From a virus: a stretch of DNA of 25,270 bases. The notes beneath the pieces are model-generated. The model saw only the letters and a program-made list of their open reading frames with translations, was not told the DNA's origin and did no database searches. The translations under genes were made by a program, and so were the position numbers. The stretch lies in the IMG/VR virus record IMGVR_UViG_3300031951_001112, positions 1 to 25,270 of that record, one strand, 5' to 3'. Of the stretch, positions 1,002 through 24,899 are shown in pieces. The stretch's first letter is position 1; each line of letters begins with the position of its first letter.

Positions 1002-1305
1002 CACCGCTTCCTTGTAGTGTACCACGTTGCTGTCGGCTACGTAGCTTGTTAATGTTACCAATGGCAACATCTTGTAAGTCAATGTTGTAGTGTTCAGATA
1101 GTACAGCTACAAACCACAACACATCACCCAACTCCTTTTTTAGGCTGTCTCGGTTTACTAGGTTTCCGCTGTCCCTCACTGCTTTTGCGAACAGGGATGC
1201 TACTTCCCCTGCTTCCCCTACTAGCCCTAGGCTTAGGTACTGATCGTTTAACGCTGTCGGCAGTGCTAGCCTTGCCGCCATCTCTTGATACTCTCGTAGA
1301 TTCAT
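991..1305 (-). CDS. MazG-like nucleotide pyrophosphohydrolase
   Basis: Predicted to hydrolyse (d)NTPs to monophosphates and pyrophosphate, cleaning or reshaping the nucleotide pool. The 104-aa protein shows the MazG metal-binding pattern: E31 and E34 in GEAGEV, then E58 and D61 in KKELGDVLWFV, with the typical helical spacing. An AAGGA about 8 nt upstream supports the ATG at 1305. Its first 182 nt lie inside the 3' part of the HNH gene in another frame. Phage MazG proteins of this length are common. Substrate cannot be read from sequence. Confidence 0.88.
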   Translation of the reverse strand: MNLREYQEMAARLALPTALNDQYLSLGLVGEAGEVASLFAKAVRDSGNLVNRDSLKKELGDVLWFVAVLSEHYNIDLQDVAIGNINKLRSRQQRGTLQGSGDDR

Positions 1306-1663
1306 TCTTCTCTTCCTTTGTCTTTACCTTATGGCATGTAGTACACAACACCTGTAAGTTACTCTTCTCACAGAACATACGGTCAATGTACACATCCCAA
1401 GAAACAAAACCAGTAGTCGGGTTAACTACTGGCTCCATATGGTCAACCTGAACATCCTTAGCTGTATACTCATTATTACAACAAGCACACCTATAATGCA
1501 TTGCTAGTTTACCAGACTTCTTATTAGTCTTCCTACCTAACTCTGCCTCTTTAAGTGCTTTCCACTTAGGGGGCCACCTTCGCATTCCACCACGTAGCGT
1601 ACTAGTAATGAAGCTGCGATAGCGGCCTTCTGTCCACTCTCCATCGTTCCTTAAATCACCCAC
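1124..1663 (-). CDS. HNH endonuclease with long basic C-terminal tail
   Basis: HNH nuclease, 179 aa. N-terminal part reads YRSFITSTLRGGMRRWPPKW, usual in phage HNH proteins; the core has a zinc pair at C59/C62, the catalytic region VDHMEPVV (D74-H75), N102 and a second pair C107/C110 followed by H111. Family members usually end soon after this (about residue 118). Here the frame continues 60 residues through a Ser/Arg/Lys-rich tail that coincides with the start of the MazG gene, so the tail is either overprinted coding sequence or a lucky open frame. The start is GTG, overlapping the upstream stop by 13 nt, with a weak ribosome site. It may act as a homing enzyme or in DNA processing. Confidence 0.85.
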   Translation of the reverse strand: MGDLRNDGEWTEGRYRSFITSTLRGGMRRWPPKWKALKEAELGRKTNKKSGKLAMHYRCACCNNEYTAKDVQVDHMEPVVNPTTGFVSWDVYIDRMFCEKSNLQVLCTTCHKVKTKEEKNESTRVSRDGGKASTADSVKRSVPKPRASRGSRGSSIPVRKSSEGQRKPSKPRQPKKGVG

Positions 1664-4769: not shown

Positions 4770-4974
4770 CACTATCTCCTTCAACAACAATAAAAGCTTT
4801 TACTGGTTTGTATACATTAACACCATCGTTATTGTATTCGGCATGGTAGCTGGCGCTACTAATAGCACTCTTCTCTGATACATACATCTTAGGGGTAGTT
4901 GTGTTTTGTGTACACATAAACTCCCCTAACATTGCTCGGTGCTTTAGCACCCAACCCTCTTTAATTACTTGCAT
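4753..4974 (-). CDS. Hypothetical protein, 73 aa
   Basis: Start at MQVIKEGWVLKHR, with GGAG 7 nt upstream; it begins 14 nt before the nuclease gene ends. Probably a small beta-rich fold (KMYVSEKSAISSASY and VNVYKPVKAFIVVEG). No family recognised. Confidence 0.75.
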   Translation of the reverse strand: MQVIKEGWVLKHRAMLGEFMCTQNTTTPKMYVSEKSAISSASYHAEYNNDGVNVYKPVKAFIVVEGDSDAIPF

Positions 4975-9670: not shown

Positions 9671-10492
9671 TCAAAGCTCCATGTCTTTAAGTATCTCAAG
9701 AGATAACTCCTTTGGTTGATGATTGAATATAGCTGAGATGTTAGGGACAATGGGGGATACATCAACAAACAATTTCTTAGCTGCTGAGTGTCCCGCTACA
9801 TCATCGTCTAGCCATAATACCACACGTTTAGTCCTAAACATATGCAACACCTTCTGTGCCTCGCTGTCCAGTTTAGTGCCTAGCAAGCACAAGGTTGGGT
9901 AACCTGCATAACGTAACTTATAACTGCTAAGTAAATCTTCTACAACAACTAGAGGTTTAGTTGTCATATCAGTAATACAATCTAAGAAACTAAATCGTTG
10001 TTTACTATATGTAAGATATTTAGGTTTCTTATTATACTGTCTTACTTGATAACCTTGAATAAATACATTACTAAATATAGGTAGGATAATACCATCATCT
10101 GTTTCAGCGATGCGGCAGTGTCTGACCAGTGTTTCGTTAAAGCCATACTGACCTAACCACAACTGACCTTCAACTTTAAACTTATCATAGTCAAGTTCTT
10201 TTGTCAAGCCTTTGTACTCAGGGGTTGGTTTTCTTGATAATATCGTTGAAGTAGATGCTCTAATGCGTCTAACTGTCTCCTTCGGTCGATAATAACCGCT
10301 ATCTCCACAGTTATGGCAATGCCACATGAATGCACCATCTACGTTTTTAACGTACAACCTCTCCCTGTTATCCATACCATTAGGACAATCAACATGGTTG
10401 TACTTAGCTTGGTCGCCTTCGTCTAGTGTCTCAAAGTCTGGTGCGTTACTAGTAAGCACAGCCAATGCTTCTTGTCCGTAATGTGTTGTCAT
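9671..10492 (-). CDS. DNA primase (zinc ribbon plus Toprim)
   Basis: Makes RNA primers for DNA replication, 273 aa. N-terminal zinc site from H33/C36 (HVDC) and C59/C62 (WHCHNCG); Toprim domain with E185 (VVVEDLL) and D229-D231 (LWLDDDVAGH). The organisation is like the primase half of T7 gp4, but the helicase is a separate gene here. It overlaps its upstream neighbour by ATGA. Confidence 0.93.
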   Translation of the reverse strand: MTTHYGQEALAVLTSNAPDFETLDEGDQAKYNHVDCPNGMDNRERLYVKNVDGAFMWHCHNCGDSGYYRPKETVRRIRASTSTILSRKPTPEYKGLTKELDYDKFKVEGQLWLGQYGFNETLVRHCRIAETDDGIILPIFSNVFIQGYQVRQYNKKPKYLTYSKQRFSFLDCITDMTTKPLVVVEDLLSSYKLRYAGYPTLCLLGTKLDSEAQKVLHMFRTKRVVLWLDDDVAGHSAAKKLFVDVSPIVPNISAIFNHQPKELSLEILKDMEL

Positions 10493-10692
10493 GGTTGTCC
10501 TTCGTTGTCTGCTCTCACAGCTAGGTCGTACAAGTCTTCTTCTGGCTCCTGCTGTGCTGGCTGCTCTGCCATCCTTGCTCTCTCGTCAGCACGGACAAGC
10601 TCGGCAAAGCGATGTATCTCAGGCATAAACTCCCGAAACAAATACCACTCAGCACCAGCCGCTTCACGGGCCAATTCAATAGTAGTCTTCAT
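10489..10692 (-). CDS. Small conserved phage protein, 67 aa
   Basis: Contains FAELVRADERARMAEQ, a segment repeatedly seen in short phage proteins of unknown role. Highly charged and helical, Glu/Gln-rich C-terminus. The ATG overlaps the stop of the homing-endonuclease frame (ATGA), a junction probably inherited from the original deaminase 3' end. Function unknown. Confidence 0.75.
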   Translation of the reverse strand: MKTTIELAREAAGAEWYLFREFMPEIHRFAELVRADERARMAEQPAQQEPEEDLYDLAVRADNEGQP

Positions 10693-11168
10693 GTGTGCTC
10701 CACAATCTTAATGCTTGTCATAGAAATGATCTGATGACAGACCTTATGCTTTGCAGCTAGGTATGCCTGTTGTGCTTCTTCTATTGTGTTGAAAACACCT
10801 AGATGTATTGTTCTTCGATTATATGTAAGTCTAGCTTTAAACTTACTGTTGTGTTTACATACACCTTTAACTCCTGTGTTATTAGTAAACTTATTTACGT
10901 TGTATTGGTTTTCTTGATTAGTAGCAATTCGCAAATTACTAACCCTGTTGTCTGCTCTGCATTGGTTGATATGGTCAAGCATACCTACAGGTAGTTCACC
11001 GTACACATACAACCAAGCAAGCCTGTGTGCTGGATACGCCTTACCATCTACTTGAATGTATACATACCCTCTAAGGGAATATCCTGCTGGCTTATTGTTT
11101 TTAATCCATGTGAATACTCCTGTTGTTTCGTTGTAGCTAAGTTTAGATTTTAATTTGAAACTGTCCAT
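10689..11168 (-). CDS. HNH-AP2 homing endonuclease fused to a deaminase C-terminal remnant
   Basis: 159 aa. Residues 44-90 are an HNH core (AHRLAW with H48, LDHIN with D65-H66, N74, NLRIAT). Residues 98-143 are an AP2-type DNA-binding domain (TGVKGVCKHNSKFKARL to QQAYLAAKHK). The last 18 residues, KVCHQIISMTSIKIVEHT, match the C-terminus of the neighbouring deaminase (KVCYNVISLTNIKVVEWT) at most positions, although their codons differ at most third positions. The gene starts 19 nt before the deaminase ends, and its stop keeps an ATGA junction to the next gene. The likely history is insertion of a homing element into the deaminase PCxxC codons, with the old 3' end left fused to the endonuclease. 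Confidence 0.9.
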   Translation of the reverse strand: MDSFKLKSKLSYNETTGVFTWIKNNKPAGYSLRGYVYIQVDGKAYPAHRLAWLYVYGELPVGMLDHINQCRADNRVSNLRIATNQENQYNVNKFTNNTGVKGVCKHNSKFKARLTYNRRTIHLGVFNTIEEAQQAYLAAKHKVCHQIISMTSIKIVEHT

Positions 11169-11461
11169 TCTACTACCTTTATGTTAGTTAGTGAAATGAC
11201 ATTATAGCATACTTTGCAAGGCTTTGCCACCAGTGGCCTACCATCCTTACCATACCGTGTTACTAGTATGCGATGTGCCTTCTTCCAATCACACTTGAGT
11301 AGTGCGGATACCTCGGCATGTAGGAATACCTTGTGAGGCTCACCCACTTCTGCCGCTATCTTGGCTTGCAATGGATGAGTCTTCACATAGCTGTTCTGAC
11401 CAGAGGAAAGCAATCGCCCCCTCTTGTCATATACGAATGCACTAACGTGCTGTTGACACAT
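11150..11461 (-). CDS. CMP/dCMP-type deaminase family protein
   Basis: Zinc-dependent deaminase, 103 aa, likely acting on a cytidine or deoxycytidine nucleotide to feed dUMP to ThyX (inference). Zinc motifs: H48-A-E50 (FLHAEVSALL) and P81-C82-x-x-C85 (AKPCKVC). It starts in a TAATG overlap with the AAA+ gene. Its final 19 nt also encode the start of the homing endonuclease, so its present C-terminus (VVEWTVSN) probably came with that element. It remains intact and probably active. Tad-like or other deaminase substrates cannot be excluded. Confidence 0.85.
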   Translation of the reverse strand: MCQQHVSAFVYDKRGRLLSSGQNSYVKTHPLQAKIAAEVGEPHKVFLHAEVSALLKCDWKKAHRILVTRYGKDGRPLVAKPCKVCYNVISLTNIKVVEWTVSN

Positions 11462-12510
11462 TAGCCAAACACCTTAGTGAACAACTCTGACACACTCTTG
11501 CTATCGTCAGGTGTCAACTTCTCAAGGTAGCTAACTTGCAATGCATACTGCACATCATAACGCTTCTGCTTACGTGCCCAATTGATAAGGGTACGTGGCG
11601 AGATGGTAAGACCTACCTTACCCTGCTCATACGCTGATCGTACAAGGGATGCAAAGCGCACCATGTCAGTAGCAGTCTTGTTGTCAACACTACTCTTACT
11701 AGTAATGATGTTAACCTCATGCTTCTGAGACAGATAGCCTAAGCGGATAGTGTTGGTGAATCGGTCAATGGTGGCTGTGTTCTGCACACCTACACCAGAG
11801 AATGCACCTGTCACATCACCCTGTCCAACAGTGTTACCTGCAAACACCAGACGGAAATTATTGTCAGGGTGAATGGTACGCTCATCACTAGTACCGGGCT
11901 TCTCCTTAAGGTAGAGATAACCACCATCTTCCAACAAGTTCTGCATACCCATTGCAATCTCTGCTGGCATAAGCTCCCACTCGTCAACAAGGCATACAGC
12001 ACCATACTTAGCTGCCTCAGTGATAGCACCATCCTCCCACACGGTAGCACCACCACGTACAACCAGTGTACCGAACAATGCGGCACTCTCTACGTCACCA
12101 GACATATTGATACGAATGAATGGACGGTTAAGCTTAGCACACACATACTTAACAAGGGAACTCTTGCCGCTACCTGTAGGGCCAGTGATGAGGGTCTTAT
12201 CACCATCCATCATACCTGCTACTAGTAACGCTGCCTCATCCTTCTGCAACACATAGTCTGCATCTATGTTAGGGATGAGTCGTGCAATCTCAGGGTTATC
12301 TGGTGTCTCTAACCACTGCACACCAAAGTCACCAAACTTAGGCTTATAACCAAACACATCACTAAACCACACATGCCCATACTCCAACACGCTAGGTGCT
12401 TTAGTCACTGCTGGTGCGGCTGGTACAACTCGCTCGGATTCCTTAGGGGTCTTACCCAAGTGGGCGGCAATAGCTTTTGCTACACGATCATTCAGTTCTG
12501 TTGTTGCCAT
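11461..12510 (-). CDS. MoxR/CobS-like AAA+ ATPase
   Basis: AAA+ motor, 349 aa. Walker A GPTGSGKS (110-117), Walker B AVCLVDEWE (171-179), a sensor-1 Asn in FAGNTVGQGD and a DRF segment before the second part of the fold. Start chosen at MATTELNDRV, with GGAG 8 nt upstream. It follows the VWA protein gene after one nt, the usual MoxR-VWA pairing, so the two probably form one complex. In chelatases this pair drives metal insertion into cobyrinate; in MoxR systems it remodels or activates proteins. Phage versions are often labelled CobS, but no catalytic chelatase subunit is present here. Confidence 0.9.
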   Translation of the reverse strand: MATTELNDRVAKAIAAHLGKTPKESERVVPAAPAVTKAPSVLEYGHVWFSDVFGYKPKFGDFGVQWLETPDNPEIARLIPNIDADYVLQKDEAALLVAGMMDGDKTLITGPTGSGKSSLVKYVCAKLNRPFIRINMSGDVESAALFGTLVVRGGATVWEDGAITEAAKYGAVCLVDEWELMPAEIAMGMQNLLEDGGYLYLKEKPGTSDERTIHPDNNFRLVFAGNTVGQGDVTGAFSGVGVQNTATIDRFTNTIRLGYLSQKHEVNIITSKSSVDNKTATDMVRFASLVRSAYEQGKVGLTISPRTLINWARKQKRYDVQYALQVSYLEKLTPDDSKSVSELFTKVFG

Positions 12511-12511
12511 G

Positions 12512-14212
12512 TCAAATACTCCTGTCAATGATTGATAAAATTGTCGGGGAAAGATTGTTCAGGTCGTTAACGATTACGTTCTTTTTATAAAAGCGAGTAA
12601 CGTTATCATCACAAATACCAATACCATAAACATCTACCCCCATCTTCTCTGCATGTTGAATTGTCTGCAATGTGTACGCTTCAATGTCACCTGCATGTTC
12701 CCTACCACAAGGGCTACCATCAGACAATACTAGTAACACCTTACGATGTTCCTTGCGTTGTGCTAGTCGTGCTGTTGCGTATGCAATACCATCACCATCA
12801 CTGTTCTGCCACAACCCACCGCTAGCTGTAGCGAATCGCTTAATAAGTTCTGACTGTGTAGTCTTCTCATTAAACTCATTGAACAACCATACAATAGGTT
12901 CTTCCTCGGCTACAGTGTTGGTAAAGCCATAGATAGAGTAGGCAATGTTCAAGGGCTTCAATGCTTCGGCTAGCGTACCAGCACCTGCACATGCCATGTC
13001 AAACTTCCTACCAGACATACTACCACTGCAATCAACTAACAAACACACAGCAGTATCGGTTGTATCGCTTACAACACGCTGACGAAACACACGCTCTGCA
13101 ACCTTGTCATTACCGCTTACAAGGCGATGCAATGAGCCAGTATGTAGCTTACCCTTCTTCTTGCCATACTCATACCTGTCACGGCTACGTGTCTGCAACT
13201 TAATGCGTAACTGGTTAGCCATAGGCCGTGCGTTATTAGTAATGTATGTGTTAACATCACTTGACTTTAAGTAACCACTACTAAAAATCATATCACTAAC
13301 TACACGGGGTAGCTTCTTGTCAAACCCACAGATTACATAGTCGCTAGGCTTAGGGATAGAGTATGCACCCCTGCCCATCTTACCGGGAATCAGGTGAATA
13401 CCTGTACGGCTAGGCTTATGCTCATGCCCAATCTCTTTCATAAGCTTGCTCACTGTGATGATGCGGTCTACATCGTCAGACACTGCCTCACCATCCTTAC
13501 CATCAGCACCCTTACCACCACTAGCTGTACCTGTACCTGAGTCATCATCCTTACCCTTGTACTCCTCAGGGTCTTCATCATACAGGTCTGCAAGGATACG
13601 CTCAGCAAGGGACATTACTTGCTCAGCATCACCACTCTCACGTACATCTAACATCTCTTCTACATACTTGTCTAGCTTGCTCAGACGCTCACTACCCACT
13701 GCATCTAGTGCCTTAAGCATCTGGTTCTTAGCGTCATCTGCTGAATGAATCCAGTTGCGTAGCGATGCATCCCACACAAACAAGGGTAGCGTCAACAGTT
13801 GCTGTTCTTGCAACTCTTTATCTTTACCTGTCATACGCTTGCTAATGTCATCAGCGTACAGATACCAGAAGTCATTACTAATAACACCATCACCCTTGTA
13901 CTCAGCATCATTGCGATAGTCAATGCGATGATCTTCTAACAAGTTGTTGATAAGGGCTAACAACCCGCTAGGGCTAACCTTGTTGAGATATACAAAGTCA
14001 CTGTATACAACGTGGCTTGTCTCATGCTTAACAAAGTAACGCATACGTGTCATCCACTCAGCACTAGTGCTACTAGTAATGGCTGGTAACCACATCTGCT
14101 TACCGTTGGTACGTGGTGTGCTGTCGGGTTCGTCCCAGTGTACGGTTACACCACTCTGCTTAGCACAAGCTGCTACGTACGTATCAAATTGCTGTACGTC
14201 TAGATAGTTCAT
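12512..14212 (-). CDS. VWA-domain protein with HExxH motif (CobT-like)
   Basis: 566 aa, partner of the adjacent AAA+ ATPase. N-terminal domain has HETSH (63-67) and a downstream LLEDHRID (E93), the spacing of a zinc site with Glu as third ligand. An acidic, Gly/Asp-rich linker (about 212-248) follows. The C-terminal VWA domain carries the MIDAS motif DCSGSMSG (394-401) and LSDGS (497-501). The layout resembles CobT-like and metallopeptidase-VWA proteins. It could be a metal-dependent protease or a chaperone adaptor; protease activity is inferred from motif only. GGAGG lies 10 nt before the ATG. Confidence 0.9.
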   Translation of the reverse strand: MNYLDVQQFDTYVAACAKQSGVTVHWDEPDSTPRTNGKQMWLPAITSSTSAEWMTRMRYFVKHETSHVVYSDFVYLNKVSPSGLLALINNLLEDHRIDYRNDAEYKGDGVISNDFWYLYADDISKRMTGKDKELQEQQLLTLPLFVWDASLRNWIHSADDAKNQMLKALDAVGSERLSKLDKYVEEMLDVRESGDAEQVMSLAERILADLYDEDPEEYKGKDDDSGTGTASGGKGADGKDGEAVSDDVDRIITVSKLMKEIGHEHKPSRTGIHLIPGKMGRGAYSIPKPSDYVICGFDKKLPRVVSDMIFSSGYLKSSDVNTYITNNARPMANQLRIKLQTRSRDRYEYGKKKGKLHTGSLHRLVSGNDKVAERVFRQRVVSDTTDTAVCLLVDCSGSMSGRKFDMACAGAGTLAEALKPLNIAYSIYGFTNTVAEEEPIVWLFNEFNEKTTQSELIKRFATASGGLWQNSDGDGIAYATARLAQRKEHRKVLLVLSDGSPCGREHAGDIEAYTLQTIQHAEKMGVDVYGIGICDDNVTRFYKKNVIVNDLNNLSPTILSIIDRSI

Positions 14213-24440: not shown

Positions 24441-24899
24441 ATGAGAACTCATAAAAAACAATACAGTAATGTTTGTGTAGAGTGTGGTACAGATTATTTA
24501 GCAGTACAAAAACGATTTAAATTTTGTAGCCCTACATGTGCACACAGAAACAATTATAACGCACGAATGTTAGATTATAAGTGGCGATTATCTAAATTAT
24601 TAGCTATGGCTAAAAATCGAGCACAAGAAAAATCAGTGCCTTTTAATTTAACACACGAACATTTAATTGAACTGTGGGATGAAAACTTAGGATGTTGTGC
24701 AGTTACAGGCAGGGATTTTGATTTAATGCAATCAACTAAACACTCTGTAAATATAAACGCACCATCTTTAGATAGAATTATACCATCTAAAGGATATACA
24801 GTAGGTAATGTACGATTAGTCGTATACATTTTAAACTGTGCTATGGGTGAGTATGGTTTAGATGAACTACGTAATTTAGCTAAAGATTTAGCCTACTAA
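24441..24899 (+). CDS. HNH endonuclease with N-terminal zinc ribbon (free-standing homing type)
   Basis: 152 aa. Zinc site C12/C15 and C29/C33 (CVECG, FCSPTC), then LGCCAVTG and PSLDRIIPSKGYTVGNVRLV (D111, N123, N132), the pattern of HNH homing enzymes. It is more AT-rich than the genes on both sides and sits between terminase and portal with 1 nt and 9 nt spacers, which suggests insertion of a mobile gene. No intron or split gene is visible around it. Confidence 0.85.
   Translation: MRTHKKQYSNVCVECGTDYLAVQKRFKFCSPTCAHRNNYNARMLDYKWRLSKLLAMAKNRAQEKSVPFNLTHEHLIELWDENLGCCAVTGRDFDLMQSTKHSVNINAPSLDRIIPSKGYTVGNVRLVVYILNCAMGEYGLDELRNLAKDLAY

Follow-up and report, generated by a model that had tools for sequence, protein, structure and literature searches.

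The stretch of DNA analysed (the window) is a virus record of 25,270 bp, the minus strand of which carries a replication operon. Located on this strand are a VWA/CobT-like gene of that operon, a MoxR/CbbQ-like ATPase gene (11461-12528), a dCMP-deaminase-like gene (whole open reading frame 11150-11461, ending KPCKVCYNVISLTNIKVVEWTVSN), an HNH-AP2 open reading frame (ORF) of 159 amino acids for a homing endonuclease (10689-11168, ending AAKHKVCHQIISMTSIKIVEHT), a 67-aa gene (10489-10692) and the primase gene of the operon (9671-10492). The ATG of the HNH-AP2 ORF sits within the deaminase frame, and the ORF overlaps the 67-aa gene by ATGA. The adjoining of the MoxR/CbbQ-like ATPase and the CobT-like VWA protein (11461-14212, minus strand) is found in the replication operon of this phage group. 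Two more HNH-like ORFs are present in the window, at 1124-1663 (minus strand) and 24441-24899 (plus strand), the latter directly after a terminase-like gene, and the 67-aa gene family is represented by two tandem copies in another phage contig (L063:3470-4165).

The deaminase gene was found to be composite. Its native 5' part (11217-11461, minus strand), running from the start to ...AKPC, contains the HAE motif and the first zinc cysteine and matches Pfam dCMP_cyt_deam_1 (E=1.2e-5). The remaining 67 bp (11150-11216, minus strand), which form the first part of an inserted element and encode KVCYNVISLTNIKVVEWTVSN followed by a stop codon, begin right after the first zinc cysteine and provide the second zinc cysteine, the last helix and the last strand. 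An AlphaFold model of this hybrid protein (pLDDT 93.8; H83-90, E96-99) has HAE and PCxxC in place, with the foreign part predicted to give the last strand and a helix that starts at the zinc cysteines.

The HNH-AP2 ORF was matched by Pfam HNH_3 (E=6.9e-14) and phrog_99 (E=3.7e-54), the HNH_3 catalytic domain (AHRLAW...DHIN...NLR) occupying residues 45-88 (10905-11036, minus strand) with its motif intact and the DH/N columns of the family alignment conserved. Alignment with phrog_99 and with family members, of which some are annotated as AP2 proteins, extends to residue 142 of the ORF, and no separate AP2 Pfam match was reported. The short HxEFA-like C-terminal tail usual in this family is missing at the junction, where the last 18 residues are instead a displaced deaminase end (10689-10745, minus strand) in frame with the endonuclease. 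Each of the two gene ends holds a likely ribosome-binding site: AAAGG (11176-11180, minus strand) in the foreign deaminase end, 7 nt before the HNH ATG, and GGAG (10698-10701, minus strand) in the displaced native end, 5 nt before the ATG of the 67-aa gene, the GGAG region (GTGGAGCACACATGA) being conserved in many relatives. As the foreign end has the site for the HNH gene and the native end keeps that of the next gene, translational coupling appears to be kept at both joints, an inference from sequence.

The insert was delimited exactly by comparison with two IMG/VR relatives, L008 and L009, which have MoxR, then an uninterrupted deaminase and then the same 67-aa gene, with ATGA joining the last two. 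Relative to these, the whole element (foreign deaminase end plus HNH-AP2 gene) measures 471 bp (10746-11216, minus strand), with CCTTG / AAGG borders and at most one base replaced, and interrupts the deaminase between both zinc cysteines (PC^KVC), which bears out the insertion point proposed in a sequence-only reading of this locus. Empty alleles occur in close relatives, the element being absent from L008, L009 and more than 20 others. The last 57 nt of the L008/L009 deaminase (AAGGTCTGTCATCAGATCATTTCTATGACAAGCATTAAGATTGTGGAGCACACATGA) are identical to the end of the HNH-AP2 ORF at 57/57 positions, whilst the present tail of the window deaminase matches this native end at 34/57 nt only. The deaminase body (the 245 nt before) is shared at 240/245 nt (98%) with L008 and 233/245 nt (95%) with L009, and the break in identity between body and present tail is highly significant (Fisher p = 1.6e-14). 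The sequence-only reading had held that the displaced native 3' end is fused to the endonuclease, beginning after the first Cys of PCxxC and keeping an ATGA junction, and that phages with an uninterrupted deaminase followed by the 67-aa gene should have a native end fitting the endonuclease tail better than the present deaminase tail; the relatives confirm each of these points.

The same arrangement was present in one further contig, L003 (IMGVR_UViG_3300008450_004073), identical to the window at 4969/4970 nt. Amongst the deaminase loci compared, the native ending is common to close relatives, KVCHQII.MTNIKIVEHT being a common deaminase end, and the window's ending occurs in the window and L003 only. 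The element in the deaminase is therefore known from only these two contigs, which may stem from the same single population. Two observations that could have refuted the earlier proposal were not made: no uninterrupted deaminase with the EWTVSN end was present in the relative loci fetched, and every other HNH-AP2 protein examined lacked the deaminase-like tail.

The tail of the deaminase (KVCYNVISLTNIKVVEWT) and that of the HNH-AP2 ORF (KVCHQIISMTSIKIVEHT) share 11/18 amino acids and about 63% of nucleotides, differing mainly at synonymous sites, almost all of which are changed (pS 0.87, pN 0.24), so that the two homologous tails with mostly different third codon positions, noticed at the outset, were borne out. 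When the record was searched at the protein level with the deaminase, the second tail was recovered unprompted (E = 7e-4), and the resemblance cannot be put down to chance, since the HNH-AP2 ORF tail equals, at 57/57 nt, the 3' end of the uninterrupted deaminase in two relatives. The GC content (GC3) was 0.50 (0.49) in the deaminase body, 0.30 (0.28) in the foreign end, 0.37 (0.30) in the HNH core and 0.39 (0.56) in the displaced end; by these values the present end resembles the endonuclease, and the displaced end resembles the host gene at third positions.

No donor of the present end was identified. A degenerate DNA pattern for TNIKVVEWT retrieved only the same element from viral contigs, no further tail of the present kind turned up in a profile search with 18 deaminases (the closest, L035/L363, matching at 37/54 nt), and a phage megablast with 12 kb of the window gave no match. 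The deaminase of L394 ends IKIIEWS and has no HNH gene beside it. With no deaminase identified as the donor of the present tail, its foreign origin rests on sequence contrast. The earlier suggestion of a recoded 3' end brought by the element is refined by these results: the end looks like a diverged homologous gene end that arrived with the element and not like codons rewritten in place.

Some further features of the native deaminase 3' end were observed. In distant relatives, the DNA of this end (window 10689-10745 and its homologues in L004-L037) is more conserved than the body despite a variable next gene, at 93% vs 78% in L013 and 88% vs 70% in L035, for which the GGAG ribosome-binding site accounts in part only. 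A 13-nt block in the native end, AGGTCTGTCATCA, is common to the allele types but stands in different reading frames (L036:1050-1131 and L037:3900-3987 vs L008:4198-4300), as if 8 nt had been lost on one side of it and a compensating 8 nt gained on the other, directly at the point where HNH inserted. This frame-shifted block is possibly the scar of an imprecise break repair.

In a survey of 163 non-redundant HNH-AP2 loci, drawn from phage and bacterial genomes and from viral contigs, we looked for similar peptides encoded before and after the endonuclease, using an ungapped, stop-penalised score with a threshold of at least 54; gapped scoring was dropped due to high-GC false positives and one slicing artefact (L292). 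The threshold was reached by 8/163 loci (about 5%): the window, L132 (terminase), L302 (tape measure), L290 (portal), L258, L200 and L311 (both NinB) and L184. Two weaker cases, L304 (RusA) and L327, backed by position and composition, bring the total to 10. Controls reached the threshold in 3/3000 mismatched pairs and 9/1000 same-genome pseudo-elements (Fisher p = 0.001; 0.003 without the window), a null of about 0.1-0.9%. Further candidates from the survey, among them L137, L187, L308 and L321, were put down to composition and discarded.

In all ten cases (10/10) the element-side copy, joined to the intact gene, had a GC3 below that of the displaced copy, shifted toward the endonuclease (sign test p = 0.002), and the differences between duplicated ends were mostly synonymous (pooled pS 0.84, pN 0.18; third positions 125/198). 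The tape-measure C-terminus duplicated around HNH in L302 (1370-2100) is identical at 29/29 residues and 63/87 nt (24 differ). As in the window, the displaced end forms an in-frame fusion with the endonuclease in L302 and L311, and in L311 it shares an ATGA overlap with the following gene as well. The arrangement is mirrored in L304 and L184, where the downstream gene receives a new 5' end from the element; in L304 (1450-2420), the displaced RusA start MAYVISFTVPGTPVGK is joined in frame to the beginning of HNH, and the new start of RusA lies after HNH. Uninterrupted RusA relatives fit the displaced start better in 9/10 relatives (up to 32/36 vs 22/36, in L427), and the displaced end was likewise the better match in 9/10 relatives of the L327 host gene. 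Empty sites for L302 and L290 were not found in the genomes searched, and those for NinB of L311 were distant only. The same anatomy was also seen in isolate and MAG prophages. The phenomenon is therefore more general than the sequence-only reading had supposed, and gene-end-restoring HNH-AP2 elements are probably a recurrent class in phages. No gene-end duplication was present at about 95% of HNH-AP2 loci, hence rescue is not a general requirement.

We are confident, short of certainty, that an HNH-AP2 element invaded the deaminase between its zinc-cysteine codons, brought a diverged homologous 3' end that restored the frame, and displaced the native end to become the endonuclease C-terminus. 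The data show an exactly delimited insertion, a displaced end that derives from the native gene, a present end set apart as foreign by its sequence and composition, operon genes that all read intact, and the same anatomy around several other HNH-AP2 genes. The steps of the process are inferred, with homing as the simplest account. The nuclease would cut the uninterrupted allele near PC^KVC, for which there are no cleavage data, and repair would copy the gene end together with HNH from a co-infecting donor, whose end would restore the gene; mobility is likewise inferred without data. On one side this repair would rely on homology within the deaminase body and on the other on little or none (AAG), with the recipient's own gene end left behind downstream as the endonuclease C-terminus. 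As the downstream junction is at AAG only, the transfer may have been partly illegitimate and not routine homing. Without an intact cut site in the foreign end, the repaired gene may escape self-cutting, a resistance for which data are also lacking, and the synonymous divergence of that end may keep the element from being lost by recombination between direct repeats; on this account a foreign, synonymously diverged end would be required on both counts. With the endonuclease's ribosome-binding site held in the foreign end and that of the next gene in the native end, the translational chain would be unbroken.

The most serious competitor, which we nevertheless consider unlikely, is that recombination between two phages at the deaminase end passively carried the HNH gene along without being driven by the endonuclease. 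Borders between phage genes are points of recombination, relatives differ widely in the gene that follows the deaminase, and the lack of cleavage data and the downstream junction almost without homology leave room for such an exchange. However, gene-end duplications were about five times commoner around HNH-AP2 genes than elsewhere in the same contigs (8/163 vs 9/1000), and they affect unrelated host genes and occur on either side. An assembly chimera, conceivable for any metagenomic contig, is very hard to reconcile with two contigs agreeing at 4969/4970 nt, with frames and overlaps that are all intact, and with the same anatomy in isolate and MAG prophages.

Two further histories would each account for one aspect of the locus. 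Had the deaminase been duplicated in tandem, with HNH then entering and the second copy decaying, two homologous ends would lie in tandem, yet this history predicts the reverse of what is observed, as here the body is native (98%) but its tail is not, the tail behind HNH is the native allele, and no second deaminase body is present; we give it almost no credence. An intron or intein with an HNH gene, the removal of which restores the native deaminase, has in its favour that exact excision of the 471 bp would give a native-like deaminase. Against an intron, there was no Rfam match in the window or in three other cases, merely about 48 bp lie outside the endonuclease core, and the insert start encodes a homologous complete deaminase end with a stop codon, for which an intron has no need. 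An intein is excluded by the TAA inside the insert at which the deaminase frame stops, and this explanation as a whole is highly improbable. Invasion by an HNH-AP2 element carrying its own deaminase end remains the preferred reading, and we lean slightly towards a wider one, that phage HNH-AP2 elements include recurrent natural home-and-rescue cassettes that cut important genes near either end and carry a diverged 3' or 5' end by which the gene is restored and cutting is avoided, the displaced native end often becoming fused to the endonuclease.

On this evidence, an important coding gene can harbour a selfish nuclease gene with no need of splicing and without being destroyed. Phage genes, among them those for terminases, portals and recombinases, can end in codons of foreign origin, with consequences for phage phylogenies and gene calling. 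Gene ends that are duplicated on the two sides of an endonuclease and have diverged at synonymous sites provide a signature for the targets of phage homing endonucleases.

Amongst known systems, the free-standing HNH endonucleases of phages (T4 mob genes, HNH-AP2) are of the same enzyme type and lie between conserved phage genes; in the portions of the sources available, the cases described lie between genes or split a gene, without gene-end replacement (PMC2988022, PMC10448857). The split genes of Aeh1 (nrdA/mobE) and T4 (gene 39/60 with mobA) resemble the window in having an endonuclease in a functionally critical part of a phage gene (PMC2988022, PMC5009743), and a role in protection from homing-endonuclease self-cutting has been proposed for the insert of T4 gene 60 (PMC5009743). 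In such split genes of the nrdA/mobE type the protein is in pieces, whereas the window deaminase is one complete polypeptide with both zinc cysteines. The ShiLan element of phage methylases is also an HNH insertion in a phage gene, the first 11 in-frame residues of which resemble the post-insertion host sequence, more in protein than in DNA; its host gene, however, reads through the insert, and the authors weighed the resemblance, which does not amount to a full gene end, as a possible intron sign (PMC11855218). No report of gene-end-restoring endonuclease elements in phages was found in the literature searched, which did not cover subscription papers. The engineered HomeR drive places a nuclease cassette in a gene with a re-coded 3' end that restores the gene, as in the window, but is a Cas9 system in flies, so that the analogy is of logic only (PMC7968924); the home-and-rescue logic of such drives seems to have arisen naturally, and repeatedly.

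The closest precedents, as the sequence-only reading had suggested for atp6, are the fungal mitochondrial hybrids with mobile ORFs, known for atp6 of Allomyces macrogynus and for atp6, atp9, cox2 and nad3 of Glomus (PMC3630166). As in the window, an endonuclease ORF lies in the gene, with a foreign C-terminus in frame upstream and the native C-terminus retained downstream (PMC3630166), and in both the native copy is closer to uninterrupted relatives, at 91-98% vs 64-81% in fungi (PMC3630166) and 100% vs 60% in the window. The fungal enzymes are of the LAGLIDADG or GIY-YIG type and mitochondrial (PMC3630166), whilst that of the window is an HNH-AP2 enzyme in a phage, and the fusion of the native end to the endonuclease, the ribosome-binding sites inside the gene ends and the 5'-end mirror cases are further differences from the fungal hybrids. 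With its HNH enzyme and phage setting, the element works like the fungal hybrids without being a member of that group, and it extends their gene-repair logic to phages, where co-infection tests are simple.
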